A DNA stretch of 62,569 nt, taken from assembly GCA_035709005.1 (NCBI GenBank), contig DASTFB010000061.1, forward strand, positions 1 through 62,569, written 5' to 3'. The DNA comes from Candidatus Methylomirabilota bacterium (GTDB taxonomy: Bacteria > Methylomirabilota > Methylomirabilia > Rokubacteriales > CSP1-6). Below the pieces are notes generated by a model. It worked only from the letters and a program-made list of their open reading frames with translations. It was not told the DNA's origin and made no database searches. The translations under genes were made by a program, and so were the position numbers. How positions within the stretch are numbered: the stretch's first letter is position 1; every line of letters begins with the position of its first letter. This document shows positions 10,070-60,025 of this stretch, one piece after another.

Positions 10070-10103
10070 CGACCGGCGGGCCGGCTGAACGCGGACCGGC
10101 ACG

Positions 10104-14083: not shown

Positions 14084-14188
14084 AGCGTGGTGTCGAGCAA
14101 CAGCGTCTGGGGAGCGCCGCTGGCCGGCGGGTGGAGCTGGAAGATCTCCCCCGTGCAGAAGCCGCCGTACACGTATGCGCTCGGGAGA
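14078..14188 (-). pseudogene. Fragment of a PQQ-dependent sugar dehydrogenase-like gene
   Basis: In a different minus-strand frame directly upstream of the EEP remnant, about 35 codons read AYVYGGFCTGEIFQL then TLLLDTTLNIA. This matches the late blades of soluble PQQ glucose/sorbosone dehydrogenase-like propellers (YVYGDFC...LLDT.L.I). No start and no stop of its own are present; at 14078-14085 the match ends and the EEP match begins in another frame. The two remnants together fill the 317 bases between the DppF-like gene and the SnoaL-like gene. Confidence 0.45.
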
Positions 14189-14195
14189 ACGCGCC

Positions 14196-38437: not shown

Positions 38438-38457
38438 ACGGGACGGCCGCCCCCCAC

Positions 38458-45495: not shown

Positions 45496-45959
45496 GACCG
45501 GCCCCCTCTCTGCAGCGCCGCCGCCCGGTGGATGGCGGCGCGGATCCTCTGGTACGTGCCGCAGCGGCAGAGGTTGCCGGCCATGGCCGCGTCGATGTCG
45601 GCATCGGTGGGGGAGGGCTTGGACGCCAGGAGCGCCGCCGCCGACATGAGCTGTCCCGACTGGCAGAAGCCGCACTGGGGCACGTCGACCTCGATCCAGG
45701 CCTGCTGCACGGGGTGCAGGCCCGTGGCCGAGAGCCCCTCGATGGTGGTCACCCGGCGATCGACGGCGGCCGACACCGGGGTGACGCAGGCGCGGACGGG
45801 CGCGCCGTCCACGTGGACCGTACAGGCCCCACAGAGCGCCATGCCGCAGGCGTACTTGGTGCCGGTGAGACCGAGCGTGTCGCGGATGACCCACAACAGC
45901 GGTGTGTCCGGTGAGACGTCCACCTGCTGCTTCCGCCCGTTGATGGTCAACGAGATCAT
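45492..45959 (-). CDS. 2Fe-2S small subunit of molybdenum hydroxylase (IorA-like)
   Basis: A 155-residue protein with two [2Fe-2S] clusters. The plant-type N-terminal cluster is in [20 protein letters not shown], and the C-terminal one is in [10 protein letters not shown] ... [11 protein letters not shown]. It transfers electrons from the molybdenum site of the adjacent large subunit. It has no signal of its own, so it would be co-exported with its Tat-signal partner. The gene is first in the operon, with a candidate promoter just upstream. Confidence 0.95.
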
Positions 45960-46120: not shown

Positions 46121-47638
46121 ATGAACCTGCTCGATCCCGAGGAGCTCAAGCAGCTACGACCAGCCGAGACCCATTCGTATGCGGGACCGATCCCGACGCA
46201 GAGCGTGTCCAGCGACGAGTTCATGCCGCGGCCCCAGTCCCCGGCCCAGCGCGAGGTCGAAGCTCGCGTGAAGGCGCTGGGCGATGGGCTGGCCGCCAAG
46301 CAAGGCATCACCCGCCGCCGCTTCTTCCAGACTGCGTCGGGCATGGCCGCGGCCTTCCTGGCCATGAACGAGGTCTACGGCGTCCTGTACGACGTGAGCC
46401 GGGCCGAGGCCCAGACGCCGGAGATGGCCGAGGAGCGGGCCCAGGCCCTGTCCAAGCAGTTCGTCATGGACTGCCACACGCACTTCCTCCGCGACGACAC
46501 CCGCATCATGGTCTTCGTCGGCCTGCGCGAAACCGTAGGCAAGGCCGGCTGGAACCCCGCGCTCGCCGGCAACCCGCAGACGATCGAAGACCTCAAGTTC
46601 GCCAACTACTTCAAGGAGATCTTCCTTGACAGCGACACGAAGGTCGGGCTGATCTCGGGCTCGCCGTCGGACATCCCCCAGGACTGGTTCCTCACCAACG
46701 AGATGAAGGCCGCGGCCCGCGCCAAGGTCAACAAGGAAGCCGGCTCGCGACGGATGCTGAGCCACGCCATCTTCACTCCGGGCCAGCCCGGCTGGCTGGA
46801 GTCGATCGATCGGGTGATCGCCGAGCTCAAGCCCGACTCGTTCAAGGGGTATACCGTCGGTGACAACGTCCACAAGGCGAGCAGTCGCTACCCCTGGCGC
46901 ATGGACGACGAGAAGGTCACGTACAGGGCCTACGAGAAGTTCCAGAAAGCGGGTCTCGTCAACGTCTGTGTTCACAAGGGCCTGCTCCCGCCGGCGCTGC
47001 AGAAGAAGTTTCCGAACCTGGTCGCCTACTCCGACGTGCGCGACGTGGGCAAGGCGGCCAAGGACTGGCCGAAGCTCAACTTCATCATCTACCACTCCGC
47101 CTACGCCTACACCGGGGGCCCGGCGAGGATCGAGGATGCCTGGGCGCAGTTCGAGAAGACGGGCCGGATCGACTGGGTGACGGACCTGGCGGAGATCCCC
47201 GCCAAGTACGGGGTGACCAACGTGTACGGCGATCTCGGGCAGCTCTTCGCGCTCAGCACGATGGCCGATCCCCGGGTGTGCGCGGCGATGCTGGGCCAGC
47301 TCATCAAGGGGCTGGGCGCCGACCACGTGGTGTGGGGCACCGACGCGGTGTGGACCGGCTCGCCCCAGTGGCAGATCGAGGCCCTGCGGCGGCTGGAGAT
47401 CCCGGAGGACATGCAGAAGAAGTACGGCTTCAAGCCGCTGGGGCCGGCCGACGGACCGATCAAGAACGCCATCCTCGGCGAGAACAACGCCCGCCTGTAC
47501 AGCTACGACAGACGCGCCGTCGCTGCCCTGGCGACCGATCGCGTGGCGGTCGCCAAGGCGCGCTACGAGGAGCTCGGCCCGTCCCGCAGCAACCTCCGCT
47601 ACGGCTACGTCCTCAAGCCCAGCGGCCTGATGGCCTGA
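46121..47638 (+). CDS. Tat-exported amidohydrolase family 2 protein
   Basis: A 505-residue protein with GAAGAGAGGGG upstream of ATG 46121. It has an unusual 60-residue cytoplasmic-like prefix before a twin-arginine signal (ITRRRFFQTASGMAAAFLAM, about 66-85). The mature domain is a TIM-barrel amidohydrolase: VMDCHTHFLRDDTR provides the H-x-H metal pair, NVCVHKGLLPPAL a histidine, NFIIYHSAYAYTGG another, and VVWGTDAVWTGSPQW the aspartate. Relatives include ACMSD-type decarboxylases and hydrolases. It is separated from the ECF sigma gene by 137 bases with a candidate promoter, so it is probably a neighbour rather than a member of the Sox-like operon. Confidence 0.88.
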   Translation: MNLLDPEELKQLRPAETHSYAGPIPTQSVSSDEFMPRPQSPAQREVEARVKALGDGLAAKQGITRRRFFQTASGMAAAFLAMNEVYGVLYDVSRAEAQTPEMAEERAQALSKQFVMDCHTHFLRDDTRIMVFVGLRETVGKAGWNPALAGNPQTIEDLKFANYFKEIFLDSDTKVGLISGSPSDIPQDWFLTNEMKAAARAKVNKEAGSRRMLSHAIFTPGQPGWLESIDRVIAELKPDSFKGYTVGDNVHKASSRYPWRMDDEKVTYRAYEKFQKAGLVNVCVHKGLLPPALQKKFPNLVAYSDVRDVGKAAKDWPKLNFIIYHSAYAYTGGPARIEDAWAQFEKTGRIDWVTDLAEIPAKYGVTNVYGDLGQLFALSTMADPRVCAAMLGQLIKGLGADHVVWGTDAVWTGSPQWQIEALRRLEIPEDMQKKYGFKPLGPADGPIKNAILGENNARLYSYDRRAVAALATDRVAVAKARYEELGPSRSNLRYGYVLKPSGLMA

Positions 47639-47714: not shown

Positions 47715-47741
47715 GGGAATAACGCGTTCGGCCGTACGTAG
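47715..47741 (+). promoter_or_regulatory. Candidate ECF-type autoregulatory promoter
   Basis: GGGAATAAC at 47715-47723 resembles the GGAA..AAC -35 element of many ECF sigma factors. It is followed about 14-15 bases later by CGTAG at 47737-47741, a CGT-type -10. It lies about 35 bases before the sigma-factor ATG at 47776. Autoregulation is typical for ECF sigma genes but is inference here. Confidence 0.4.
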
Positions 47742-47775
47742 ATATCGATGCGGGGGGTATGCACAGGGGCACCGC

Positions 47776-48366
47776 ATGGAACAACCGGTCGCGTTCCAGG
47801 ATCTGGCTCTGAGCCAGCTCAGCTCACTCTATGGGTACGCGCGATTGCTGAGCCGGAACGACGCGGACGCCGAGGATCTGCTGCAAGAATCGCTCCTGAA
47901 GGCCCTCCGGGCGTTTCCCTCCTTCAAGCCCCATCTGAGCTTCAAGGTCTGGATGTTCAGGATCATCAAGAACGCCCAGATCGATCGCGTGCGTCGGCTC
48001 CGGGCCCGTCCTCTGGAGGCGCCCAACGGCGCTGAGAGCCAGGCGGGCGATCCCGCGCGGGACGTGCTGCTGTACCCGGTCCCGTTGAACCCGGAGGAGA
48101 TCCTGCTCCGCCGGGTCGCCGTCGAGGAGGTCCGGGACGCGATCCGCCGCCTGCCCCTCGTGCTCCGGGAGGTCGTCGAGCTGCGCGAGATCGAAGGGTT
48201 GTCCTACGAGCAGATCGCGGGGGTGATCGGCAAGCCGGTGGGCACGGTGATGTCGCGACTATTCCGCGGGCGTAACCTCGTCCGGTCGGCGATCCAGGCG
48301 TCGGCTCGGGTCCAGGATCCCGCGCCGGCGGTCTCCGCGGGCTTGCGGAAGAGCTATGGCCTGTAA
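47776..48366 (+). CDS. ECF-type RNA polymerase sigma factor
   Basis: A 196-residue sigma factor. Region 2 spans roughly residues 10-85 (LYGYARLLSRNDADAEDLLQE, FKVWMFRIIKNAQIDRVRR), and region 4 spans 125-180 (LPLVLREVVELREIEGLSYE, QIAGVIGKPVGTVMSRLFRG). There is no region 1 or 3, as in group IV factors. ATG 47776 has AGGGG upstream. The anti-sigma gene overlaps its end by 11 bases, the usual arrangement for a cognate pair. Being first in the co-directional block, it probably controls the Sox-like/oxidase genes that follow. Confidence 0.95.
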   Translation: MEQPVAFQDLALSQLSSLYGYARLLSRNDADAEDLLQESLLKALRAFPSFKPHLSFKVWMFRIIKNAQIDRVRRLRARPLEAPNGAESQAGDPARDVLLYPVPLNPEEILLRRVAVEEVRDAIRRLPLVLREVVELREIEGLSYEQIAGVIGKPVGTVMSRLFRGRNLVRSAIQASARVQDPAPAVSAGLRKSYGL

Positions 48367-49186
48367 GCTCGTCCGCGCCCGGCTCTTCGAGTACATGGAT
48401 GGCGAGCTTCCCGCCGAGCCCCGGGCGCAACTGGAGGCGCATGTCACGGCATGTGCCGACTGCCGGCGCCTGCTGGACCTGGAGCGGAGCTTCGCCGAGC
48501 ACTACGGCCAGCGCCTGCGACCCGACCCCGCCCCCGATCGGCTGCGCGCCCGCGTCACCGAGATGCTCGGCGCCGTGCCCGCGGTCCGGCCCCGGCGGTG
48601 GGGACGACGCCTGGCGCTCGGCTACACGCTGGTCGCCGCGGGCGCCGTGGCCACGCTCGGCCTGGGCGCCCTGCTCGCCGGCGGTGGCCCCCGCTTCTGG
48701 CGGCTCGAGTCGGCGCCGCTCGGGCGCCTGGCCGCCGCCTCCGTCGAACAGCACCAGAAGCTGGCTCGCGGCATCCTGCCCCATGACATCACGCAGGTCA
48801 CCCCCAAGGCCGCCGAGCAGTGGTTCAAGTCGAGGCTGAACTTCAACGTCAACCTGCCCGAGCTCACCCGGGAGGACCTCGACCTGGTCGGCGGGCGGAT
48901 CGCGCATCTGCGCGACCTCGAAGTGGCGGCCCTGCACTTCAAGATGGACGGCCGGGACATCTCGCTGTTCGTCATCCCGTTCGAGAAGTATCTGGACCTC
49001 GGCATCGACGCGACGCCGAAGTTCAAGATGGTCACGCACCAGGGCTACGACGTCATCGTGTGGGCCTCCCACGGCATGGCCTATTCCCTGGTCTCGGAGA
49101 TCGGCGGCCGCTCGTGCCTCGTCTGCCACTCCCGCGACGAGCCGCTCGGGCTGCCGGCCGACGCGCGCGCTCACGATCGGCTATGA
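48356..49186 (+). CDS. Zinc-finger anti-sigma factor with periplasmic CxxCH domain
   Basis: A 276-residue membrane protein. The cytoplasmic N-terminus is a ZAS domain with C3, H29, C33 and C36 (HVTACADC), the sigma-binding zinc module. A transmembrane helix covers about 83-103 (LALGYTLVAAGAVATLGLGA). The periplasmic part of about 170 residues has a beta-rich segment (ALHFKMDGRDISLFVIPFEKY) and ends with GGRSCLVCHSRDEP. C254-x2-C257-H258 is a perfect c-type heme attachment motif. If heme is bound, this would be a redox- or sulfur-sensing anti-sigma factor. Seen: ZAS, helix and motif; heme sensing is inference. Confidence 0.9.
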   Translation: MACKLVRARLFEYMDGELPAEPRAQLEAHVTACADCRRLLDLERSFAEHYGQRLRPDPAPDRLRARVTEMLGAVPAVRPRRWGRRLALGYTLVAAGAVATLGLGALLAGGGPRFWRLESAPLGRLAAASVEQHQKLARGILPHDITQVTPKAAEQWFKSRLNFNVNLPELTREDLDLVGGRIAHLRDLEVAALHFKMDGRDISLFVIPFEKYLDLGIDATPKFKMVTHQGYDVIVWASHGMAYSLVSEIGGRSCLVCHSRDEPLGLPADARAHDRL

Positions 49187-49230
49187 GTCGCCCGGCTGCT
49201 GGCGGCCGGGTCGAAGAAGGAGAGTGCTTC

Positions 49231-49959
49231 ATGCCTCGGCGCTTCGGATTCGGCCTCGTCGTCGGCCTGCTCGGCAGCCTGCTGCTGCCCGGCCCGCCGG
49301 CGGCGGGCTATCAGGCGATCTCGGTCACGAACGGTGGGAGCATCCAGGGGAAGGTCGTGTTCACCGGGTCGCCGCCGTCACCCCGGAAGGTCATTCCCAC
49401 CAAGGACAAGGAAGTGTGCGGCGGCATCCGCGACGAGCCGCGCATCCTGCTGAGCCCGGACAACGGGGTGGAAGGCAGCTTCGTCTATCTCAAGAAGGTC
49501 GAGAGGGGCAAGGCCTGGGACAAGCCGGCCAAGCCCCCGGTGATCGACAACAAGCAGTGCCACTTCGTGCCCCGCGTCCAGGTGATCCCGGTGGGCGCGC
49601 TGGCCATCCACAACTCGGACCCCGTGCTCCACAACACCCACGGCTTCTTCGGCAAGGTGACGGCCTTCAACGTCGCGCTGCCGATCCAGGGCCAGACCGT
49701 CAAGCGCCCCATCAAGAAGTCCGGCCTCATGCGGGTCGAGTGTGACGCCCACGGGTGGATGCTGGCGTGGATCTACGTCGCCGATCACCCCTACTACGTC
49801 GTCACGGGTAAGGACGGCTCCTTCACGCTCAAGGACGTGCCGCCGGGACAGTACACCCTGGTGGCCTGGCAGGAGTACACAGAGGAGGTGGAAGCCCCCG
49901 TCACCGTCAAGGCCAAGGAGACCGCGACCGTCACCATCGATCTGGCCAAGACGAAGTAG
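49231..49959 (+). CDS. Exported cupredoxin-like / carboxypeptidase-regulatory-like protein
   Basis: A 242-residue periplasmic protein with AAGGAGAG upstream of ATG 49231 and a signal peptide (residues 1-26). SIQGKVVFTGSPP opens a beta-sandwich, and the middle contains a possible type-I copper site: H127 in IHNSDPVLHNTHG and C171-x2-H174-x2-M177 in VECDAHGWM. The C-terminal GSFTLKDVPPGQYTLVAWQE is a carboxypeptidase-regulatory-like fold. Similar proteins are labelled methylamine utilisation or plastocyanin-like. In this operon it may be a copper electron carrier between the Sox-like proteins and the cbb3 oxidase; that role is inferred. Confidence 0.85.
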   Translation: MPRRFGFGLVVGLLGSLLLPGPPAAGYQAISVTNGGSIQGKVVFTGSPPSPRKVIPTKDKEVCGGIRDEPRILLSPDNGVEGSFVYLKKVERGKAWDKPAKPPVIDNKQCHFVPRVQVIPVGALAIHNSDPVLHNTHGFFGKVTAFNVALPIQGQTVKRPIKKSGLMRVECDAHGWMLAWIYVADHPYYVVTGKDGSFTLKDVPPGQYTLVAWQEYTEEVEAPVTVKAKETATVTIDLAKTK

Positions 49960-49976
49960 CCGAGAAAGGAGTGGCC

Positions 49977-51119
49977 ATGGAGCCACGGGAGGTAGACCTC
50001 GACCCCCGGCAAGTCGCCATGGAGATCGACACGGGCCAGCGCCCGGACCGGTCCCTGACGATCACGCGCCGATTGTTCGTCAACAGGGCCATCCTCGCCG
50101 GCACCGCGGCCGGGGCGGCCTCGCTCGGGTGGTTCCCCGTCATCAACACCCTGGACCTGGCCTTCGGGCAACAGGCCGCCTTCAAGTTCGCCTGGCTTTC
50201 CGACACCCACCTCTATCCCAAGAACGTCAACACGCGGTTCGTGGAGAAGACCGTCCGCGCGGTGCGGGAGATCAAGGCCATGAACCCGCCGGCGGACTTT
50301 CTGATCTTCGGCGGGGACCTGGCCCAGCTCGGGGACCCGGTGGAGATCGATCTCGGGGCCGACATCCTCAAGGAGCTCACCATCCGGAAGCACTTCATCC
50401 CCGGCGAGCACGACTGGTACCTGGACATGGGGGCCAAGTGGGAGAAGATGTTCGGCAAGACCCCCTGGACGTTCGACCACAAGGGCGTGCGGTTCATCGG
50501 CCTCAACACCGTCGGCTTCGCCCCCGACTACTGGTCGGCCAAGAAGATGTCGCCCAAGGAGCGGATGGGGCACATGGCGACACTGGATGGAAGCGTGGCC
50601 GGCCCCTGGGCCGGCGTGGGTGACGCCCAGATGAAGTGGCTCCAGCAGACGGTGTCGGGCTGGGCCAAGGACCGGCCGCTGGTGATCTTCACCCACACGC
50701 CGCTCTACGAGTACTACCCGCCCTGGAACTTCTGGACCCGCGACTGGCGCGAGGTCAACGAGATCCTCAAGCCGTTCGGCAACGTGACCAACATCCACGG
50801 GCACACCCATCAGGTGCTCTACAACGAGGTCGGCAAGCTGCGCTCGATCGGGATGCTGGCGACGTCCTGGCCGTGGCCTTACGCCCCCCAGGGCGTCCCC
50901 CCACTGACCAAGCCCATGATCCGCGCCGATCCCGGCGATCACTTCGACGGCGTCGGCTACTCCAAGCACTCGGTCAGCGCCGCCGGCCGGGTCGAGAACG
51001 AGTACGTGATGTGGGGCCGCAAGGAGATCTTCGCCGAGTCGATGGTCGATTCCGGCACCGCGGACAACGTCAACCAGATCCTGCACCCGCGGATCGCCGA
51101 TCGGATCTGGCCCTATTAG
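49977..51119 (+). CDS. Tat-type metallophosphoesterase, possible SoxB-like partner
   Basis: A 380-residue protein. ATG 49977 fits AAAGGAG spacing better than the GTG six bases earlier. A signal-like segment follows a short prefix (ITRRLFVNRAILAGTAAGAA, about 31-50, twin-arginine). The calcineurin-like metal motifs are D76-x-H78 (LSDTHLY), GGD114, G-E144-H145-D146 in place of the usual GNHD, THTP and HGHTH. SoxB, the thiol-hydrolase of thiosulfate oxidation, is also a di-metal phosphoesterase-fold protein, but of a longer 5'-nucleotidase type. Adjacency to cytochrome c and SoxYZ suggests an analogous role. The N-to-E change in the metal loop is notable. Confidence 0.85.
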   Translation: MEPREVDLDPRQVAMEIDTGQRPDRSLTITRRLFVNRAILAGTAAGAASLGWFPVINTLDLAFGQQAAFKFAWLSDTHLYPKNVNTRFVEKTVRAVREIKAMNPPADFLIFGGDLAQLGDPVEIDLGADILKELTIRKHFIPGEHDWYLDMGAKWEKMFGKTPWTFDHKGVRFIGLNTVGFAPDYWSAKKMSPKERMGHMATLDGSVAGPWAGVGDAQMKWLQQTVSGWAKDRPLVIFTHTPLYEYYPPWNFWTRDWREVNEILKPFGNVTNIHGHTHQVLYNEVGKLRSIGMLATSWPWPYAPQGVPPLTKPMIRADPGDHFDGVGYSKHSVSAAGRVENEYVMWGRKEIFAESMVDSGTADNVNQILHPRIADRIWPY

Positions 51120-51139
51120 GGCCGGAAAGGAAGAGACCC

Positions 51140-51607
51140 ATGAAGCGCAAGCTGGTGCTGGCGGTGCTGGGCGCGGGACTGCTGGGCCTGCTGGGGGCGG
51201 AGGTCGGTTATCTCTGGGCCCCTCTGCCGGCGCTGGCCCACAAGGCGAAGCACACGCCGGAACAACTCGCCGCATTCGAGGAGGTTTTGATGGAGCAGGT
51301 CCGGGTCGGCGACCTGTTGTTCCACGGGGACGCCGACACCGAGAAGAAAATGCGAGTGGAGCTCTCCAAGACGGGCATGGCCTGCGCCATGTGCCATCCC
51401 TTCGCCTCCGACAACCATCCTCACGAGTTTCCGAAGTTCCAGGAGCAGATGAACGAGTTCGCCACGCTGCGGGACATGATCAACTGGTGCATCGAGAAGC
51501 CCAACGAGGGCGTGAAGATCGATCCCAACGGGCCGGCCATGAAGGCGCTGGAGGCCTACATCTACTGGTCCAATCGCGGCTCCAAGCTGGACACGGGCCG
51601 GCACTGA
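51140..51607 (+). CDS. Monoheme cytochrome c
   Basis: A 155-residue exported cytochrome. Residues 1-34 are a signal peptide or anchor (KRKLVLAVLGAGLLGLLGAE). One heme motif, C82-A-M-C85-H86, is followed by a region without an obvious second motif. The tail NWCIEKPNEGVKIDPNGPAMKALEAYIYW resembles the C-terminal helix region of SoxA/TsdA-like cytochromes, where a cysteine or methionine is an axial ligand. It lies between the metallophosphoesterase and SoxYZ, spaced by about 20-30 bases on each side, and probably accepts electrons from the carrier-bound sulfur. Confidence 0.85.
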   Translation: MKRKLVLAVLGAGLLGLLGAEVGYLWAPLPALAHKAKHTPEQLAAFEEVLMEQVRVGDLLFHGDADTEKKMRVELSKTGMACAMCHPFASDNHPHEFPKFQEQMNEFATLRDMINWCIEKPNEGVKIDPNGPAMKALEAYIYWSNRGSKLDTGRH

Positions 51608-51638
51608 GGAGGTTGGCGCGACGACCGGTGGCCGGACG

Positions 51639-52460
51639 ATGACCTGGCGGGGGGGCTCGCGCCGAGGCTTCCTGGCTCTGGCGGCGGGGGCCGTCGGGCT
51701 CCTCGGCGCGGGCCCTCCTCGCCGTCACCTGGGTCCCCTGGACGACCCGGACGAGGGCTCGCCGCTGGAGCGGCTGCACCGGCCCCGGGTCGAGTTGCCC
51801 GTCGTGGCCAGCGATGGCGCCAAGGTCCCCATCGTGATCGAGATGGCCCATCCCATGGAGCCCGGCCATCACATCACGACGATTCACGTCACCAATGAAC
51901 GAGATCCCGTTCCTTCCAAGGGAGTCTTCCACCTGTCCCCCGGGAACGGGCGGGTCCATCTCTCGTTCCAGTGCCGCATGCACGTGGGACGCTCGGAGGC
52001 CGTGGTCACGGCGCAGTGCACGCGCGACGGCGAGTGGTCGGCCCGGCGCTCGATCACCGTCCCCGATGGGGCCGGTGGCTGCGCCGCCCCGGCGCCGAAG
52101 CGCCTGGCGGCGGAGGAGGTCGGCGCGCCGGTCATCCGGGTGCCCGACCTGCTCAAGCGCCCGGACCTTCCCCGGGGCGCGGTGGTGCCGGTGCAGCTCC
52201 TCATGCGCCATCCCAGCCGCACCGGTTTGGCCTGGCGGGACGGTCGGTGGGTGCAGGTGACCGAGCCGTTCTACGTGCGGACGATCGAGGTGCACTATGG
52301 TGAGGAGCCCCTGAGCCGGTTCGAATTGACCTCGGCCCTCAGCGACAACCCCTTCATCGGGTTCCGGGTGCGGACCCGGCACCGCGGGCCGCTCCGCGTC
52401 GTCGTGACGAACAACCGCGGCCAGCGCTTCGAGACCACCCGCGAGCTGCCGCTGGCCTGA
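51639..52460 (+). CDS. SoxY-SoxZ fusion, sulfur carrier protein
   Basis: A 273-residue protein with an RR-containing export signal (RRGFLALAAGAVGLLGAG). Residues about 55-145 are SoxY-like (IVIEMAHPMEPGHHITTIHV, GRSEAVVTAQC), ending in GAGGC148AA, the equivalent of the GGCGG swinging arm whose cysteine carries the sulfur intermediate. Residues about 165-273 are SoxZ-like (VVPVQLLMRHPSRTG, VTEPFYVRTIEVHYG, LSDNPFIGFRVR). In canonical Sox these are two proteins. Here the carrier cysteine sits in the linker between them, which limits how far the arm can reach. Fused SoxYZ-like carriers are also known beside quinoprotein dehydrogenases. Confidence 0.88.
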   Translation: MTWRGGSRRGFLALAAGAVGLLGAGPPRRHLGPLDDPDEGSPLERLHRPRVELPVVASDGAKVPIVIEMAHPMEPGHHITTIHVTNERDPVPSKGVFHLSPGNGRVHLSFQCRMHVGRSEAVVTAQCTRDGEWSARRSITVPDGAGGCAAPAPKRLAAEEVGAPVIRVPDLLKRPDLPRGAVVPVQLLMRHPSRTGLAWRDGRWVQVTEPFYVRTIEVHYGEEPLSRFELTSALSDNPFIGFRVRTRHRGPLRVVVTNNRGQRFETTRELPLA

Positions 52461-52500
52461 TCCGGGCCCGCGCGGTCCGGAATCCACGGAGACACGCCGA

Positions 52501-53916
52501 ATGGCGCAGGATGTGAGGACCCGCAACGACGAGCTGATCGACCCCCGGCTCATCCGGAACTGGCTCCTCTGGGGCTTCTTCTGGCTGATGTTCGCGCCCA
52601 CCATCGGCGTGATCGTCTCCACGAAGTTCAACTACCCCGCCTTCCTGGGCGAGCAGTCCTGGCTCACCTTCGGCCGGCTCCGCCCCGTGCACGTCAACGG
52701 CGTCATCTGGGGCGCCTTCTCCACGCTGTTCATCGGGCTCACCTACTACGTGACTCCCCGACTGGCCGGAGTGCCGATGTGGAAGGAGCGCTGGGGCTAC
52801 CCGCTCCTCTGGGTCTGGAACCTGAACCTGGCCGCCACCTTCCTGGCCTTCTCGCTGCTGGGCGCCAATCGCGGCTGGGAAGCGGGGGAGATTCCGCTCC
52901 CCAACCTCGTCGTGCTCGTGGGCCTGGTGTGGGCGCTGACCCTGCAGCACCTCATGACCATCGCCCGGCGCCTGCAGCGCCCGCTGTACGTGAGCCTGTG
53001 GTATCTGATCGGTGCCCTGGTCTGGACGAGTATCAATCTCGTGCTCCTGGTCGTGGGGCCGTACTGGACCGCCTCCGGGATCAACAACGCCGCCCTGCAC
53101 GGGCTCTTCATCCACTACGTCGTCGGCCTCTGGATCACGCCGGCCGGCTACGTACTGATCTACTACTTCCTGCCCGCTTCCATCCGGGCGCCCATCTACA
53201 GCCACAAGCTGTCTCTCATCGGCTTCTGGTCCCTGGCCTTCTTCTACCCCTTCGTGGGCATCCACCACTATCTCTTCAGCCCGATCGCCGACTGGGCCGA
53301 GAGCATCGCCATCGTGGCTTCGATGATGCTGATCATCCCGGTGTGGACTGTGCTCCAGAACTTCTTCGGGACCATGATCGGGCACTGGCAAGGGTTCTCG
53401 CGCAACCTGCCCGCCAAGTTCCTGATGATGGGAGCCATCATGTACCTCATCGGCTGCTTCCAGGGATCGACCGAGGCTCTCCGCTGGATCCAGCGCCCCA
53501 CCCACTTCACCGACTTCGTGATCTCCCATTCCCACCTCACCGTCTTCGGGACGTTCGTGGTCTGGGCCATGGCCGGCGCCATCTACGTGTGGCCCCGGCT
53601 GTGGGGCCGCGAGCTGTGGAGCTTCCGGCTCGGGAACTGGAGCTTCTGGTTGATCACCCTGGGTATTTCCACCATGGGGCTGGTCCTCTCCTCCCAGGGG
53701 CTTCAGCAGGGCTACATGCTGATCGGGGGCGCCGAGTGGGTCGACACCCTCGTCACGATGAAGCCCTTCTGGCTCATCCGGACCTTCGCGGGGATCTCCA
53801 TGGATCTCGGCATGTCACTCCTGGTCTACAACTTCATGCGCACCGCGCTGGCTGGCGCACCCCTGCCCAGCCTGCGGACGGGACACCAGCCGGCCGAGCG
53901 GCTGGCCCGGGCGTAG
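52501..53916 (+). CDS. ccoN: cbb3-type cytochrome c oxidase subunit I
   Basis: A 471-residue, roughly 12-helix catalytic subunit of a high-affinity heme-copper oxidase. Visible histidine blocks include LRPVHVNGVIWGAFSTL, TLQHLMTIARR, HGLFIHYVVGLWITPAG, VGIHHYLFSPIADW and DFVISHSHLTVFGTF, which hold the two b hemes and CuB. The active-site tyrosine region YYFLP fits the cbb3 placement. It reduces O2 with electrons from the c-type subunits. It follows the SoxYZ fusion by 40 bases and is separated from the next subunit by only 3. Confidence 0.94.
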   Translation: MAQDVRTRNDELIDPRLIRNWLLWGFFWLMFAPTIGVIVSTKFNYPAFLGEQSWLTFGRLRPVHVNGVIWGAFSTLFIGLTYYVTPRLAGVPMWKERWGYPLLWVWNLNLAATFLAFSLLGANRGWEAGEIPLPNLVVLVGLVWALTLQHLMTIARRLQRPLYVSLWYLIGALVWTSINLVLLVVGPYWTASGINNAALHGLFIHYVVGLWITPAGYVLIYYFLPASIRAPIYSHKLSLIGFWSLAFFYPFVGIHHYLFSPIADWAESIAIVASMMLIIPVWTVLQNFFGTMIGHWQGFSRNLPAKFLMMGAIMYLIGCFQGSTEALRWIQRPTHFTDFVISHSHLTVFGTFVVWAMAGAIYVWPRLWGRELWSFRLGNWSFWLITLGISTMGLVLSSQGLQQGYMLIGGAEWVDTLVTMKPFWLIRTFAGISMDLGMSLLVYNFMRTALAGAPLPSLRTGHQPAERLARA

Positions 53917-53919
53917 CCG

Positions 53920-55563
53920 ATGAAGACCTACGCCCTCGGTGCCGGATTCTTCTTCATCTCCCTGGCCATCTTCGTGCAGGGCATCCTGCCCATCGCCATC
54001 CCGGAGTCACGGGAGACGCGGGCCTCCCGTGCGGTCCGCAACGAGCTCGGCCAGGTCAAATGGGTGTGGTACGAAGCCACGCCCTACACGGCGCCGGAGC
54101 AGTTGGGCCGCGAGGTGTATCAGCGGGAAGGCTGCTGGTATTGCCACAGTCAGTACGTCCGCCCGGTCACCGGCGAGGAGTTCCGCTGGGGGCCGGTCTC
54201 GCAGGTCGGCGAATACGCCCACGACCGTCCGCACCTGCTGTCCACCCGGCGCATCGGGCCGGACCTCACGCGGGTGGGCCTGAAGCATGGCGATCAGTGG
54301 CACTACGCACACCACTGGGACCCGACCCTGGTCGTGCCCGACTCCATCATGCCGAGCTTCCGCTGGCTCTTCCGCTCGGCGCAGGTGCCCATCGTGGACA
54401 AGAACGGCGAGCCGGCCCTCGGCGAGTCGGCCTCGCTCAAGGCGCTGTTCAGCGGACGGACCGACAAGACGATCCAGCTCCACCCCAATCCCGAGGGGCT
54501 GGCCTTCGCCGAACAGACCGACGGCACCCCCGCGCTCGCCGTGACGAACCTTCCCGAGCCCTACAACCAGCTCGAGACCTGGAAGGGCAAGACCCTGACC
54601 GTCGTCGTGCCCACCGAGGAACTGCGGGGACTGGTGGCCTACATCCAGAAGCTGGGGATGAACCGGGGAACCTGGCGCGACGTCTTCGAGCCGCAGAACC
54701 TGTCGGCCAGCGTGATGTCCATCCCGCGCACGGAGGGGCTGGAGGCCCGGGGTCGCGAGATCTACGAGCGCCGCTGCGTGGGTTGTCACGGTCTCAAGGG
54801 GGATGGCAACGGGCCCGTCGCCACCTTTCTGAATCCCCGACCTCGCAACTTCACCCTCGGCTCGTTCAAGTTCCGCACGACGCCCTCGGGCTCGCTGCCG
54901 ACCGACGGCGACCTCTTCCGCACCGTCACCCAGGGCGTCCGGTTCACCGCGATGCCCACCTGGCACGAGATCTCCGAGAAGGACCGGATGGCGGTGCTGA
55001 CCTTCATCAAGACGTTTTCCGACCGCTGGAAGGAGGAGAAGCCCGAGCCTGCGATGCTGATCGGGGAACCGCCGCCGGCCACCCCGGAGCTGCTGGCCCG
55101 GGGCAAGGAGTGGTACGTCAAGGCCAAGTGCTTCCAGTGCCACGGCGATACCGGCAAGGGCGACGGCCCCTCGGCCGACGAGCTCGAGGATGACCTCGGG
55201 TTCAAGATTCTCCCGGCCGACTTCACCAAGGGCCAGTTCAAGGGCGGCGCCGATGTCCGGGACATCTTCCGCACGATGAGCACCGGGCTCGACGGCACGC
55301 CCATGCCGTCCTTCGCCGACGCGATCCCGAGCGAGGAAGACCGGTGGGCCATCAGCTACTACGTCCTGTCCTTTTCTGCGTTCAACGACCCGCTCACCGG
55401 TGAGCGGCTCAAGCTGCCGGCGGACATCCTCGAGAAGCTCAATACGCCAGACCGCGAGGCCTATGGCAGCTCGCGCCTGGCTCTGGACCCGGCCCGGCCG
55501 GCCCAGACCGATCCCAAAGTCCTCGTGCGCTTCCACAAGGGCATCCCGGGGGAAGGGAGGTAG
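53920..55563 (+). CDS. Tri-heme CcoO-like subunit fused to a di-heme cytochrome c domain
   Basis: A 547-residue protein anchored by one N-terminal helix (YALGAGFFFISLAIFVQGIL). The first 240 residues are CcoO-like: GREVYQREGCWYCHSQYVRP (heme at C72-C75-H76), with RIGPDLTRVG and IMPSFRWLF. A linker leads to two further class-I cytochrome domains with C286-V-G-C289-H290 and C404-F-Q-C407-H408, like CcoP or fused nitrite-reductase-type cytochromes. Normal cbb3 oxidases have separate CcoO (one heme) and CcoP (two hemes). The fusion gives all three hemes in one chain. It probably takes electrons from the upstream cytochrome or cupredoxin. Confidence 0.92.
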   Translation: MKTYALGAGFFFISLAIFVQGILPIAIPESRETRASRAVRNELGQVKWVWYEATPYTAPEQLGREVYQREGCWYCHSQYVRPVTGEEFRWGPVSQVGEYAHDRPHLLSTRRIGPDLTRVGLKHGDQWHYAHHWDPTLVVPDSIMPSFRWLFRSAQVPIVDKNGEPALGESASLKALFSGRTDKTIQLHPNPEGLAFAEQTDGTPALAVTNLPEPYNQLETWKGKTLTVVVPTEELRGLVAYIQKLGMNRGTWRDVFEPQNLSASVMSIPRTEGLEARGREIYERRCVGCHGLKGDGNGPVATFLNPRPRNFTLGSFKFRTTPSGSLPTDGDLFRTVTQGVRFTAMPTWHEISEKDRMAVLTFIKTFSDRWKEEKPEPAMLIGEPPPATPELLARGKEWYVKAKCFQCHGDTGKGDGPSADELEDDLGFKILPADFTKGQFKGGADVRDIFRTMSTGLDGTPMPSFADAIPSEEDRWAISYYVLSFSAFNDPLTGERLKLPADILEKLNTPDREAYGSSRLALDPARPAQTDPKVLVRFHKGIPGEGR

Positions 55564-55566
55564 GGC

Positions 55567-55743
55567 ATGGAGCAGCTCATCTATCTCGTGGTCGGTGAGT
55601 TCCTCGTCTCGATGCTGATGGGGCTAGCCGCCCTCTGCGCCTTCGTGTGGGCGCTGACCGCCGGCGCCTTGAGCAACGTCGAGCGAGTGAAGTACCAGGT
55701 GCTGCAGATCGAAGGGATCGAGCATGACGCCGACCGGCGATAG
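55567..55743 (+). CDS. Small single-helix membrane protein, CcoS-like
   Basis: A 58-residue protein with one long hydrophobic helix (LIYLVVGEFLVSMLMGLAAL and onward) and a charged tail (NVERVKYQVLQIEGIEHDAD). It starts three bases after the tri-heme gene and overlaps the next one by 20 bases. Position and shape suggest an assembly or accessory subunit of the cbb3 oxidase, like CcoS or CcoQ, though no diagnostic residue is seen. Confidence 0.65.
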   Translation: MEQLIYLVVGEFLVSMLMGLAALCAFVWALTAGALSNVERVKYQVLQIEGIEHDADRR

Positions 55744-55939
55744 TGCCGATCGCGAGCGAGTGATCGCCGAACACGCCACCGACCGGGGCCCCGTGGAGGA
55801 GTTCGCCCAGGGCGAGATCCGTAGCTATCACGGATTCGTGAACAAGTGGCTCCTGCTGGTCTACACCGCGCTCACGATCTGGAGCGTCTATTACCTGGTG
55901 AAGTTCTGGGGCGGCCTGGGGCCGGGGCTGGCCCGATGA
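55724..55939 (+). CDS. Small membrane protein, CcoP N-terminal-like anchor
   Basis: A 71-residue protein with a hydrophilic head (about 1-35) and one helix (KWLLLVYTALTIWSVYYLVK). The block RSYHGFVNKWLLLVYTALTIW resembles the membrane anchor of CcoP/FixP, which here has lost its heme domains, now fused to the CcoO-like protein. It probably helps dock the oxidase subunits. It overlaps the following 34-residue gene by ATGA. Confidence 0.65.
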   Translation: MTPTGDSADRERVIAEHATDRGPVEEFAQGEIRSYHGFVNKWLLLVYTALTIWSVYYLVKFWGGLGPGLAR

Positions 55940-56040
55940 GGGCCGTGTGGCTGCTCCTGGCGCTGGCCGTGATCAATCTGGCGATCCTCGTGAGCGACGC
56001 GCTGTTCAACGTCGTGGCGGTGATCTGGCAGGGGCCCTGA
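55936..56040 (+). CDS. 34-residue single-helix membrane protein
   Basis: ATG 55936 overlaps the previous TGA (ATGA). The product is nearly all one helix (RAVWLLLALAVINLAILVSD then ALFNVVAVIWQGP). No family is recognised. Tight coupling inside the oxidase cluster suggests a micro-subunit of the complex. Confidence 0.55.
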   Translation: MRAVWLLLALAVINLAILVSDALFNVVAVIWQGP

Positions 56041-56055
56041 ACGGAGACGACGACC

Positions 56056-56148
56056 ATGCCTCCGATCGAGATGCTGGCCTTCGGGATCTTTCTGGCGGGA
56101 ACGCTGATCTTCTTCGCGTGGGTCCTCCTGCTCACCGTCCGCAAGTGA
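56056..56148 (+). CDS. 30-residue single-helix membrane protein
   Basis: ATG 56056 opens a 31-codon frame ending TGA at 56148. The product is PPIEMLAFGIFLAGTLIFFA followed by WVLLLTVRK: one helix with a positive C-terminus. GGAGACGACGACC upstream is a weak ribosome site. It lies between the 34-residue gene and ctaG and is probably another micro-subunit; existence rests on position and helix pattern only. Confidence 0.5.
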   Translation: MPPIEMLAFGIFLAGTLIFFAWVLLLTVRK

Positions 56149-56263
56149 GGAGGCCGCGCCCATCGCGCACCCGACCGGATCCGTAACCGGCCCGGCGGCG
56201 GCCACGCCGCTGGGCCTTCCCGCGCCTGCTGCGGCGCTCGCCGGGGAGTGGCGGCCAGAGGTC

Positions 56264-57028
56264 GTGATCCCCCTGGCGCTCTGGCTGACGGTCTACACGC
56301 TCGGCTGGTGGCGGCTCCGGGCGCGCACGACCGCCCCGGCACCGGCCTGGCGGCTCGGCGCCGCCGTCATGGCCACGGGGGCGATCGCGATCGCCCTGCT
56401 GTCCCCGCTCGACCGCTGGGCCCACGAGCGTTTCTCGGCGCACATGGTCCAGCACCTCTTGCTGCTCAAGCTCGCGGCCCCCGCCGTGCTCCTCGCCAAC
56501 CCGCTGCCGATGGTTCTCTGGGGCCTTCCCCGAAGCGTGCGGCGGCGGCTCGGCGGGCAGCTCGGTCGCGGCCGGCCGTTGCGGAGGATGGCGCTGGCCC
56601 TCACGGCGATGCCGCTGGCGTGGGGGCTGTCCGCGCTGGCGCTCTGGGCCTGGCACGTGCCCGCGGCCTGGGAGGCGGCGCTCAGCGATCGGCTCGTGCA
56701 CGACCTCGAGCACCTGGTCTTCTTCGGTAGTGGTGTGCTCTTCTGGTGGCCGCTCCTCGAGGCGGCGCCGCGGCTGCGGGCGCCAGCCCATCCCGGCGCC
56801 CGGATGGCCTACCTGATCCTGGGTGCCTTTCAGGAGGCGACCCTGGGGCTGCTGTTGACGGTGAGTCCCCAGGCGCTCTACCCCACGTACGGGGGCGCCC
56901 TCGATGATCAATGGTGGGGCGGGGTTGTCATGTTCGGTGCCGGCGGCCTGATCGACATGACGGCGGTGCTCATCCTCCTATTCCGGGTGCTCGATCGCGG
57001 GGAGCCGCTGGCCGTGCGGGCCGTATAG
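56264..57028 (+). CDS. ctaG: CtaG-family cytochrome c oxidase assembly factor
   Basis: A protein of at least 254 residues with about seven helices, from the caa3-type CtaG family that delivers copper to the oxidase. Landmarks: ALLSPLDRWAHERFSAHMVQHLLLL with the copper-binding-type histidines, WHVPAAWEAALSDRLVHDLEH, FWWPLLEA and QALYPTYGG. The first standard start is GTG 56264, but the open frame continues upstream with a plausible N-terminus (AAALAGEWRPEVVIPL), and a GGAGG lies nine to ten bases before an in-frame ATC at 56162, so a non-standard start is possible. It fits the role of maturing the adjacent cbb3-type oxidase. Confidence 0.9.
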   Translation: MIPLALWLTVYTLGWWRLRARTTAPAPAWRLGAAVMATGAIAIALLSPLDRWAHERFSAHMVQHLLLLKLAAPAVLLANPLPMVLWGLPRSVRRRLGGQLGRGRPLRRMALALTAMPLAWGLSALALWAWHVPAAWEAALSDRLVHDLEHLVFFGSGVLFWWPLLEAAPRLRAPAHPGARMAYLILGAFQEATLGLLLTVSPQALYPTYGGALDDQWWGGVVMFGAGGLIDMTAVLILLFRVLDRGEPLAVRAV

Positions 57029-57030
57029 GC

Positions 57031-58080
57031 ATGGAACCCGGCTGGTCGCTGTACGTGTCCGCCCTGACGGTGGGCATCCTCTTCGGTTACGTCCTGCAGC
57101 GCGGCGGATTCTGCCTCACCCGTGCGCTGGCCAACCTCGTCCTGAGCGGTGACGCCACGATCCTCCGGGCCTGGATCCTCGCGCTCGTGGTGGCCATCAT
57201 CGGCGTTCAGGCGCTGGTGAGCCTTCACGTCGTCGACGTCCCGGTCCACTCCTTTCGCTGGCTGGCGAACATCCTCGGTGGTCTGCTCTTCGGCGTCGGC
57301 ATGATCCTGGCCGGCGGATGCGCCGGCAGTACATGGTACCGGGTCGGTGAGGGCGCGGTCGGCGCTGTTGTCGTGCTGCTCGGCTTCGCCATCGGCGCCA
57401 GCGTCGTCGGGATCGGGGCGCTGGCCCCGGTGCGGCGGATGCTCCAGGAGCCGACGCTCACGGTGGGCGACGCCCCGCCCACGCTTGCCAACGCGCTCGG
57501 CGTGTCCCCTTGGATCGTGATCGCCGGTTTGGCCCTCATGGCAGGGCCGTGGTTCCTGCGCGGTCGGGGCGGAGCTGCAGGGGGCAAGTGGCCCTGGGGG
57601 GTGACCGGCGGAGCCGTCGGGCTCCTGATCATCGCGGGATGGTGGGCCTCGAGCCTCGGCGACGGACCGCAGGGCATCACCTTCAGCGCCAACACGGGCC
57701 ATCTCCTGACGTACGTCATGGTCGGATTTCCCAACCGGATGACCTGGGGCATGCTGCTGCTCCCCGGGGTCGCCGTGGGTGCGTTCGCCGGCGCCTGGCT
57801 TGCCGGCGAGTTCCGCTGGAAGCTGCCTCCGGGATGGAGCCTGGTCAAGCTCTTCGGGGGCGGGCTGCTCATGGGTGGCGCGGCCCTGCTCGGCGATGGC
57901 TGCAACATCAGCCACGGCCTCACCAACTTGGCCACCCTCGCGGTGAGCAGTCTGGTGAGCTTCGCCTGCATGGGTCTGGGGGGCTGGGCGACGCTGTGGG
58001 CCCTCTACCTGCGTGCGGGCGCCAGCGAGCGCGTCAGAGCTGCGAGCGGAGCGGCGCCGTCAGGCATCCCAGCACCTTGA
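57031..58080 (+). CDS. YeeE/YedE-family sulfur-compound transporter
   Basis: A 349-residue, roughly nine-helix membrane protein. The three conserved cysteines of the family are present with matching spacing: C28 (RGGFCLTRA), C97 (LAGGCAGSTW) and C291 (LGDGCNISHGLTN). Family member TsuA imports thiosulfate through relay contacts with such cysteines. It begins two bases after ctaG and ends the Sox-like/oxidase block. Its presence strongly supports sulfur chemistry for the whole cluster, either as thiosulfate importer or as exporter of a sulfur product. Confidence 0.92.
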   Translation: MEPGWSLYVSALTVGILFGYVLQRGGFCLTRALANLVLSGDATILRAWILALVVAIIGVQALVSLHVVDVPVHSFRWLANILGGLLFGVGMILAGGCAGSTWYRVGEGAVGAVVVLLGFAIGASVVGIGALAPVRRMLQEPTLTVGDAPPTLANALGVSPWIVIAGLALMAGPWFLRGRGGAAGGKWPWGVTGGAVGLLIIAGWWASSLGDGPQGITFSANTGHLLTYVMVGFPNRMTWGMLLLPGVAVGAFAGAWLAGEFRWKLPPGWSLVKLFGGGLLMGGAALLGDGCNISHGLTNLATLAVSSLVSFACMGLGGWATLWALYLRAGASERVRAASGAAPSGIPAP

Positions 58081-58140: not shown

Positions 58141-59934
58141 TTGCTGCATCCTAGCCCAGACGATAGAATCGCCGTCACCTCCAGGGAGCGTATCCTGTCA
58201 CGCGCCGCGGATGTTAGGACGACTTCGTCGAGCGGGCTACCCGCCACGCGAGGCTTTTTCCGCGTCGAGCACGTAGTGATGACCGTGGCGGTCCTCTCGC
58301 TCCTGGTGCTCGTCGTCCTGCCCCTGGCCTCCATGGTCTGGGGCAGCCTCACCGAGGCCGGCCGGCCGACACTGGCGCACTTCCGGGAGGCGCTGGGGAG
58401 CCGACTGTACGTGCAGGCGCTCCGCAATTCCCTCGTGCTCGGGCTGTGGACGGCCGTGCTGAGCGTCGTCGTCGGGGTTCCGCTGGCCTGGGCGGTGAGC
58501 CGGACCGATGCGCCGGCCAAACGGTTCGTGCATCTGACGGCCGTGATCTCGTACGTCACGCCGCCGTACCTGACGGCCATCGCCTTCGTCAACCTCTTCA
58601 GCCCCAACGCCGGCCTGATCAACCGGTTCGTCCGCGACGTGCTGGGGCTGCCCGGCCTGACCTTCAACGTGTTCTCGATGGCCGGCCTGGTCCTCGTCAC
58701 CGCGCTGCACACCTTTCCCTTCGTGTACCTGCTCGCCGCCAGCGCGCTCGAGTCGGTGGACGCGTCGATGGAGGAATCGGCCCAGATCCTGGGGGCGGGG
58801 CGCTGGCGCATCGCCGCCGCGGTCACCTTGCCGCTCGTCGCGCCGGCCGTGCTGTCGGGGGCGCTGATCGCCTTCGTGAACGCCATCGCGCTGTTCGGCT
58901 CGCAGGCCATCATCGGCCTGCCCGGCCGGGTCTTCACGCTGCCCACCCGGATCTACGCCCTGTTCGACTACCCGCCCCAGTACGGGCTGGCCTCGGCGAT
59001 CTCGTTGATCTTCGTCGTCATCACCGTGCTCGCGCTCTACCTGCAGCGGCGCTACCTGGCCCGGCGCTCCTACGTGACCGTGGGCGGGAAGGGCAGCCGT
59101 CCCCAGCTCGTCCGGCTGGGGGCGGCCCGCTGGGCCATCTTCGCGTTCTGCGTGGCCGTGTTCGTGGTGGCGGTGCTGGCGCCGTACCTCACGCTGCTGG
59201 CCGTGTCGGTGAGCCAGTCCTGGGGCCTGGGGTTCTGGCAGCACCTCACGCTCCAGCACTATCGCTTCGTCCTGCTCGAGTACGACGTCACCCGGCGGGC
59301 CATATGGAACAGCCTGCTCCTGGCCTCCGCGGCGGCCACGCTGACCGTTCTGCTGGGCAGCCTGATCGGGTGGATCGATCTCCGCACGGGGTTCCGCGGC
59401 CGCAAGCTGCTCGACTACGCCTCGCTCATCCCGCTGGGACTGCCGGGGATCGTCGTCGCGGTGGCCCTGATCCAGTTCTGGCTTCGCATGCCGCTGCCCA
59501 TCTACGGCACCCTGCTCATCATCCTGCTCGCCTACACCGGGCGGTACGTGCCGCTCGGCGTGCGCTCGGCCAACGCCGCCTTCCGCCAGATCGATCCGTC
59601 GCTGGAGGAGACGGCGCGGGTCACCGGGGCCGGGTGGCTGCGGACGTTCCGCAGCGTCACGCTGCCGCTGGCCCGTCCCGGCCTCTTCGCCGGCTGGCTG
59701 CTCGTCTTCGTCCCGGCCATCCAGGAGCTGTCCGCCTCCATCCTGCTCTTCAGCTCGGAGTCCATCACCCTGGCCGTCGCCGTCTACAATCTCTACGAGA
59801 CGGGAGCGCTGGAACCGGTGGCCGCGCTGGCGATCGTCACCATGGTGATCATCACCGCGGCGATCGCGCTGGCCAGTCGGCTGGGCCGCGTCGGCGGCGC
59901 CGCGCCCGTGGAGCGCGTCCCGGTGACCCCGTGA
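58141..59934 (+). CDS. Iron(III)-type ABC transporter permease, two permease units fused
   Basis: A protein of up to 597 residues; the frame opens with TTG at 58141, and GTG 58276 or ATG 58279, just before the first helix (VAVLSLLVLVVLPLASMVWG), are alternatives. Two permease domains lie in tandem, with coupling loops VDASMEESAQILGAGRWRIA and IDPSLEETARVTGAGWLRTF. It matches the architecture of the permease at 36674-38437. No binding-protein gene is next to it: the upstream neighbour is the sulfur transporter. With the ATPase downstream it forms an importer that must borrow its binding protein. Confidence 0.9.
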   Translation: MLHPSPDDRIAVTSRERILSRAADVRTTSSSGLPATRGFFRVEHVVMTVAVLSLLVLVVLPLASMVWGSLTEAGRPTLAHFREALGSRLYVQALRNSLVLGLWTAVLSVVVGVPLAWAVSRTDAPAKRFVHLTAVISYVTPPYLTAIAFVNLFSPNAGLINRFVRDVLGLPGLTFNVFSMAGLVLVTALHTFPFVYLLAASALESVDASMEESAQILGAGRWRIAAAVTLPLVAPAVLSGALIAFVNAIALFGSQAIIGLPGRVFTLPTRIYALFDYPPQYGLASAISLIFVVITVLALYLQRRYLARRSYVTVGGKGSRPQLVRLGAARWAIFAFCVAVFVVAVLAPYLTLLAVSVSQSWGLGFWQHLTLQHYRFVLLEYDVTRRAIWNSLLLASAAATLTVLLGSLIGWIDLRTGFRGRKLLDYASLIPLGLPGIVVAVALIQFWLRMPLPIYGTLLIILLAYTGRYVPLGVRSANAAFRQIDPSLEETARVTGAGWLRTFRSVTLPLARPGLFAGWLLVFVPAIQELSASILLFSSESITLAVAVYNLYETGALEPVAALAIVTMVIITAAIALASRLGRVGGAAPVERVPVTP

Positions 59935-59976
59935 GCCAGCGAGCTGGGGTCGAGTCAGTTCGGAGCCGGTGGGGGG

Positions 59977-60010
59977 TGTCGGGGAGGAGCGGCGGCCGCT
60001 TCCCCCGACA
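59977..60010 (+). promoter_or_regulatory. Two-tier hairpin between permease and ATPase genes
   Basis: TGTCGGGG (59977-59984) pairs with CCCCGACA (60003-60010). Inside it AGCGG (59988-59992) pairs with CCGCT (59996-60000) around CGG. The structure ends 15 bases before the ATG at 60026; the sequence TTAACGATAACAATT between them is the most A/T-rich stretch nearby and contains no Shine-Dalgarno. Confidence 0.55.
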
Positions 60011-60025
60011 TTAACGATAACAATT

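Follow-up and report, generated by a model that had tools for sequence, protein, structure and literature searches.

We analyzed a 62,569-nucleotide stretch of DNA from Candidatus Methylomirabilota bacterium (contig DASTFB010000061.1 of assembly GCA_035709005.1; the whole stretch is hereafter called the window), and focused on a block of 14 genes at positions 47776-58080, all on the plus strand and separated by no more than 115 bp or by short overlaps. We favor, with moderate confidence, the interpretation that this block is one operon encoding a variant periplasmic sulfur-oxidation module that is wired to a private cbb3-type oxidase. The gene content, the conserved gene order, the intact metal and heme ligands, the carrier cysteine of SoxYZ, a unique promoter and the absence of SoxB from the genome bin can be read from the sequences themselves. 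An earlier, sequence-only reading of the window had listed the same genes, on a single strand with gaps of at most about 115 bases or overlaps, and the gene coordinates and Pfam assignments confirm all of them. Its picture of a defined system with a conserved order, its own oxidase, a dedicated switch, an intact SoxYZ cysteine and no SoxB was upheld, whereas SoxYZ proved not to be the centre of the system, and CtaG, YeeE and the sigma/anti-sigma pair proved to be lineage-specific.

Conserved gene order and distribution

Using the profile of the metallophosphoesterase (MPE) as a probe on GTDB contigs, 264 related places were found and 80 loci were kept. The cupredoxin gene is located upstream of the MPE gene in 79 of the 80 loci, a SoxA-like cytochrome gene follows downstream in all 76 loci with enough sequence, and CcoN is present in 59 of the 63 loci longer than 15 kb. 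The core order is cupredoxin, MPE, SoxA-like cytochrome and then, usually, CcoN and a CcoO-diheme fusion. The loci are distributed among about seven phyla, and their lineages include Methylomirabilota/Rokubacteria, Tectomicrobia, metagenome-assembled genomes (MAGs) labelled Binatota/Myxococcota, Thermodesulfobacteriota, Nitrospirota, SAR324, and the Alpha-, Beta- and Gammaproteobacteria. Two of the carriers are plasmids, pSymA of S. meliloti and one from Phyllobacterium, and the MPE marker is present in the S. meliloti strains SM11 and Rm41. This order, kept across unrelated phyla, excludes a synteny limited to this contig. The SoxA-like gene was detected in only 3 of 397 sampled Pseudomonadota genomes, and the sample was centered on one of these three; therefore, the module is rare, and it is widely spread.

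The sigma/anti-sigma pair, CtaG, YeeE and SoxYZ are lineage-specific additions to the core, and YeeE is found in the module of the window and its close relatives only. Methylomirabilis and the loci L102 and L117 have the cupredoxin, MPE, SoxA-like and SoxYZ genes with no adjacent cbb3 genes; locus L080 and the closed genome G045, which belongs to that class too, are taken by us to be Methylomirabilis. At the Methylomirabilis locus L045, a gene for a CCP/MauG diheme protein (9905-10927) comes after the four core genes, and a paralogous cupredoxin gene with 35% identity (13890-14615) is located on the opposite strand about 3 kb beyond it. At locus L131, from a Nitrospirota MAG named after a Mn-oxidizing enrichment and with no SoxY in its genome, a cytochrome P460 gene (11585-12271) comes right after the SoxA-like gene.

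Proteins of the module

Pfam assignments above gathering cut-offs were obtained for the extracytoplasmic function (ECF) sigma factor, zf-HC2, CarboxypepD_reg, Metallophos, the SoxA/TsdA cytochrome, SoxY plus SoxZ, COX1/CcoN, FixO plus two cytochrome c domains, Caa3_CtaG and Sulf_transp. The first protein of the conserved core (49231-49959) is a predicted periplasmic type-1 copper protein, amicyanin-like, with a C-terminal CarboxypepD_reg domain. Pfam detects only the latter domain and no cupredoxin domain; the AlphaFold2 model (pLDDT 91) has amicyanin as its top PDB match (Foldseek E 8e-6). The copper ligands H134, C171, H174 and M177 are present in 93 of 93 homologues, with the C-x2-H-x2-M spacing of amicyanin.

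The MPE (49971-51119) is of the calcineurin type (PF00149), with an Arg-Arg (Tat-like) signal and the motif GEHD replacing GNHD; D78, H80, D116, E146, H147, D148, H242, H276, H278 and H280 of its metal site are invariant among 92-96 homologues. The following gene (51140-51607) encodes a single-heme, single-domain cytochrome c of the SoxA/TsdA family, which matches PF21342 with 35.9 bits (cut-off 27) and SoxA in the PDB (1h31) with an E-value of 2.5e-5. Its CxxCH motif and axial Cys117 are kept in 93 of 93 homologues, and the domain aligns gaplessly to residues 74-127 of the TsdA heme-1 domain, with a weak score (E 0.09). Together, the invariant catalytic-type ligands of the MPE and the axial-Cys heme of the cytochrome suggest that both proteins are enzymes.

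The SoxY-SoxZ fusion (51639-52460; PF13501 and PF08770 above cut-off) has a Tat-like signal and a carrier cysteine, C148, in a GGC motif. This arm cysteine is intact in 28 of 28 aligned homologues and in 50 of 52 alignment rows. In Methylomirabilota, Tectomicrobia and Binatota/Myxococcota, the fused gene separates the SoxA-like gene from CcoN. In rhizobia, separate soxY and soxZ genes, a cytochrome c and a flavocytochrome c sulfide dehydrogenase (FCSD) stand beside the module; in the alphaproteobacterium at L132, soxYZ is immediately 3' of the SoxA-like gene, and in SAR324 (L128) it lies downstream of the module with SCO and a cytochrome. The fused, rhizobial and other SoxYZ arrangements fall in separate clades of the MPE tree. 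Judged by these gene neighborhoods, the fused SoxYZ and the rhizobial soxY/soxZ/FCSD set represent two independent links to sulfur. SoxYZ is missing from the module in most Gamma- and Betaproteobacteria, and the Nitrospirota members have none anywhere in their genomes. Among 30 cluster genomes without SoxYZ near the module, 25 encode SoxY elsewhere, compared with 131 of 397 Pseudomonadota genomes (Fisher p 7e-8, relatedness not corrected for).

The catalytic subunit of the oxidase (52501-53916; PF00115) matches CcoN in the PDB (3mk7_A) with an E-value of 4e-45. Aligned to this structure, H64, H205, Y249, H255, H256, H343 and H345 comprise the heme and CuB ligands and the active-site tyrosine, and they are invariant among the homologues. 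Since this tyrosine is conserved, an O2 reductase is preferred to an NO reductase. Gln321 occupies the position of the conserved Glu323 (P. stutzeri numbering) in 69 of 69 members of the CcoN group. The next gene (53920-55563) had been described as a tri-heme cytochrome; the Pfam and PDB matches now resolve the protein into CcoO (FixO) and, fused to it at the C-terminal side, a diheme cytochrome with a predicted CcoP-like role. The CcoO part matches 3mk7_B, and the diheme part (residues 275-485, ligands invariant) is closest in the PDB to 6h5l_B (E 9e-65); no CcoP chain was returned in the PDB search of the diheme part. We take 6h5l_B to be Kustc0458 of anammox bacteria, a partner of a hydroxylamine oxidoreductase (HAO)-like enzyme.

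Four microproteins are encoded between the oxidase genes and ctaG: a 58-aa CcoS/FixS-like membrane protein (55567-55743; PF03597 E 4e-4, below the gathering cut-off; conserved in other phyla), a 71-aa protein resembling the N-terminal membrane anchor of CcoP (FixP) (55724-55939; PF14715 E 0.012; conserved), and two proteins of 34 aa (55936-56040; homologues at 48-82% identity) and 30 aa (56056-56148; homologues at 46-80% identity, up to Betaproteobacteria), each with a single predicted transmembrane segment. The homologues on the Phyllobacterium plasmid again give weak FixS and FixP_N matches (PF14715 E 0.0019). For each of the four, other lineages contain relatives at the protein level, and they are therefore genes and not noise. 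The CcoO and CcoP parts of the oxidase are not missing; they are fused and split differently. The operon closes with a Caa3_CtaG copper-insertion factor (56264-57028; PF09678, 171 bits; 56264 is the first ATG/GTG/TTG start) and a YeeE/YedE protein (57031-58080; PF04143, 221 bits; TsuA equivalog 158 bits, cut-off 400), a predicted TsuA/SoxT-like sulfur transporter in which three cysteines are of the conserved type. In some Rokubacteria, a second, diverged CcoN-CcoOP-CcoS-FixP_N set is located just upstream of the sigma gene (L078 3900-7400, L036 6900-10600, L037 15200-18700).

The ECF switch and the surroundings of the operon

The 14-gene block is headed by a single predicted ECF-type promoter, GGAATAA-N14-CGTA, at 47716-47740 on the plus strand, 35 bp 5' of the sigma start. 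The pattern GGAATAA-N13-15-CGTA has this single occurrence in the 4.59-Mb host genome, with none for the reversed control and none in shuffled windows. Eleven distinct clusters whose sigma gene is co-directional (window included) contain it once apiece, and it is found nowhere else in the searched loci. In loci with divergent sigma/anti-sigma genes, the cupredoxin gene is instead preceded by GGAATAA and, at a comparable spacing, [CT]GT[AC]. No internal sigma-70-type promoter was found on the plus strand of the operon. Because the motif is unique in the genome and present once per cluster in relatives, the switch appears to be dedicated, in agreement with the sequence-only reading, and autoregulated.

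The 196-aa sigma factor (47776-48366) contains Sigma70_r2 and r4_2 domains above cut-off and has orthologues at the same place in Methylomirabilota/Rokubacteria. The adjacent gene (48356-49186) encodes a membrane anti-sigma factor with a zf-HC2 domain (Pfam), a predicted transmembrane segment, an RseB/MucB-like periplasmic domain (weak RseB fold match; model pLDDT 75) and a C-terminal CxxCH motif (residues 254-258), which is kept in 21 of 21 alignment rows and in all 15 rows of a second set, A5, across phyla. This motif is a possible heme-c or thiol redox sensor that controls the ECF sigma factor; by way of speculation, the private switch may sense the redox state or heme.

Adjoining the operon, and not conserved alongside it, are an amidohydrolase gene (Amidohydro_2; 46121-47638, plus strand) and genes for a molybdenum hydroxylase-like large subunit with a [2Fe-2S] partner (43345-45959, minus strand). 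The region is flanked by two sets of genes (36674-40676 and 58141-61114) that, by eye, resemble iron-type ABC transporters (permease and ATPase).

Proposed function and alternative explanations

According to the proposed mechanism, the SoxA/TsdA-type cytochrome, by its Cys-ligated heme, would oxidatively couple a reduced sulfur compound to the cysteine arm of SoxYZ or, in genomes without SoxYZ, to a second thiosulfate; the compound may be thiosulfate, persulfide or sulfur derived from sulfide. The Tat-exported MPE would then hydrolyze the terminal sulfone or oxidized group, the role of SoxB in Sox. The amicyanin-like protein would pass electrons to the diheme domain on CcoO, CcoN would reduce O2, and left-over sulfane sulfur may, in this organism, enter the cell through YeeE, with the whole block under the private autoregulated ECF sigma factor. 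The substrate, the order of the steps, the SoxB-like role of the MPE, the electron route and the signal for the anti-sigma factor are what we infer here. A more far-reaching version, which we hold only tentatively, is that of an undescribed respiratory system that oxidizes sulfur independently of SoxB. Here a calcineurin-type hydrolase of another branch would stand in for SoxB and an amicyanin-like protein for the usual cytochrome donor, a CcoO-diheme fusion would feed a dedicated C-family oxidase and, in Methylomirabilota, an anti-sigma factor with a periplasmic heme-c/redox motif would switch the system.

Like canonical Sox, the module is periplasmic and has a SoxYZ carrier with the GGC cysteine arm, a cytochrome of the SoxA family and a hydrolase from the metallophosphoesterase superfamily. 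It differs in that SoxY and SoxZ are fused and optional, the SoxA-like protein has one heme and no Arg before its axial Cys, the hydrolase is not SoxB, and the cupredoxin and oxidase are built in; SoxX, SoxC and SoxD are absent from the cluster, and no whole-genome search for SoxX or SoxCD was made. The nearest tested precedent is the TsdA-SoxB route of Erythrobacter flavus 21-3, a pathway without SoxYZ shown by experiment (PMC7608252). It likewise combines a SoxA/TsdA-type cytochrome with an MPE-superfamily hydrolase and does not require SoxYZ; in contrast, it uses a true diheme TsdA and a true SoxB, and the available part of that report describes no cupredoxin or dedicated oxidase. The oxidase resembles the cbb3 type (ccoNOQP with ccoGHIS) in its CcoN ligands and tyrosine, in CcoO, in the CcoS-like and CcoP-anchor-like small proteins and in the CcoI and SCO genes nearby in rhizobia, and departs from it in the fusion of CcoO to a Kustc0458-like diheme domain, the split-off CcoP anchor, the replacement of Glu323 by Gln and the lack of a CcoQ or CcoP gene. 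YeeE has the Sulf_transp fold and cysteine pattern of TsuA/SoxT (PMC11582611) and scores below the equivalog cut-offs. The regulators resemble pairs of ECF sigma and zf-HC2 anti-sigma factors with RseB-like sensing and an autoregulated GGAAT-type promoter, with the difference that here the anti-sigma factor ends in an invariant CxxCH (possibly a heme c or redox pair) and the regulon appears to equal this operon.

In the host genome, no SoxB was found with the TIGR04486 profile (0 matches), and the only SoxA/TsdA-family domain is that of the window itself. Among 50 cluster genomes tested, SoxB reaches its cut-off in 17. The host bin is 95% complete with 3.6% contamination, and gene absences from it are therefore likely but not certain. 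We rejected the possibility that the host carries a complete canonical sox operon at another place: there is only a lone, separate soxY plus soxZ pair at a contig end (L033 1015-1831; G000:C114), adjoining a DUF222/HNH gene, with no SoxB and no second SoxA-family domain.

Several observations weigh against the sulfur-oxidation interpretation. The ordinary soxYZ pair is accompanied in the host by several other heme-copper oxidases. No DsrA above cut-off was found in the host genome, so that a cytoplasmic Dsr partner for YeeE-imported sulfur was rejected. The MPE belongs to a CpdA-like branch and gives no match to the SoxB model. The SoxA-like cytochrome fails the SoxA equivalog TIGR04484 (29.4 bits, cut-off 110); the earlier statement that the set lacks SoxA is nevertheless inexact, as the PF21342 match means that SoxA is not simply missing. 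The Arg located four residues before the axial Cys of SoxA and TsdA has a catalytic role. In 91 of 93 homologues of the SoxA-like cytochrome, Met113 takes this position, and SoxA-type catalysis is therefore not assured. Finally, no SoxY is detectable in five of the genomes with the cluster, which are from Nitrospirota, Thermodesulfobacteriota and other MAGs. These five genomes provide the strongest argument that SoxYZ is optional rather than the centre of the system.

The core found in genomes without SoxY is also consistent with an explanation that we consider unlikely, namely that a private oxidase brings along the proteins for its maturation and electron supply and serves an unrelated donor. 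In this case, the cupredoxin, SCO, CtaG and the Cu-ATPase would supply copper, the MPE and the SoxA-like protein would be assembly or protective factors, and the sulfur genes would be neighbors of convenience. SCO, a CcoI-type Cu-ATPase, DsbD_2/TauE, hemA and groEL around the rhizobial modules would fit, as would the cytochrome P460 adjoining the core in Nitrospirota and the similarity of the diheme domain to anammox Kustc0458, the partner of an HAO-like enzyme, as assumed above. However, the four-gene sets of Methylomirabilis, L102 and L117 without adjacent cbb3 genes indicate that the core does more than assemble an oxidase, SoxYZ genes in different arrangements are linked to the module in separate clades, and the invariant MPE ligands and axial-Cys heme suggest enzymes. 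Slightly less probable is a tetrathionate-forming or sulfide-detoxifying system, in which the SoxA-like protein would be a minimal thiosulfate dehydrogenase and the MPE would hydrolyze polythionates; it overlaps with the favored sulfur-oxidation reading and differs in the role of SoxYZ. The gapless TsdA alignment, the optional SoxYZ across the MPE tree, the rhizobial FCSD and the known TsdA plus SoxB pathway (PMC7608252) are in its favor, but the alignment is weak, a single CxxCH-bearing domain stands against two heme domains in TsdA, and Met replaces Arg before the axial Cys.

The best NCBIfam model of the fused SoxYZ is TIGR04557, a quinoprotein dehydrogenase-associated SoxYZ-like carrier (112 bits), and this match would suit a role as a thiol or persulfide relay, either in the maturation of proteins or in sulfur signaling, instead of one in energy-yielding sulfur oxidation. 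Such carriers, which are likewise SoxY-SoxZ fusions, sit with SoxH-like hydrolases and pyrroloquinoline quinone (PQQ) alcohol dehydrogenases (PMC12997753), and YeeE/SoxT is able to act in signaling (PMC11582611). We regard this relay as improbable: the score is under the curated cut-off of 140, the fused gene lies inside a cytochrome/oxidase operon, no PQQ dehydrogenase is found among the operon genes or the annotated rhizobial neighborhoods, and in rhizobia SoxY and SoxZ of the true type occur together with the sulfide-oxidizing FCSD. Chance clustering on one contig, for which only the MAG origin of the contig could be invoked, has a negligible probability and is refuted by the synteny: the order is kept in the 80 loci from different phyla, some of which belong to named isolates or lie on plasmids.

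No description of this gene combination was found in the open-access literature, mainly in titles and the openings of abstracts, where such an absence is weak evidence; 'MPE' in PMC6620896 is another usage, for an unrelated arsenic cluster. Every family-assigned protein belongs to a known superfamily, several members score under the cut-offs of the families that they resemble, and the combination is apparently undescribed. If the sulfur-oxidation reading is true, an overlooked route from sulfur to oxygen would exist in hundreds of genomes, including nitrogen-fixing rhizobia (S. meliloti pSymA) and soil Rokubacteria, with a four-gene part in Methylomirabilis. Gene-marker surveys keyed to SoxB would miss the module, as SoxB is under its cut-off in 33 of the 50 cluster genomes. 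With its unique promoter, the regulon can be tested directly. In cultivable hosts, the module would also allow one to test to what extent Sox chemistry can be pared down and what an MPE outside the SoxB family does in the periplasm.

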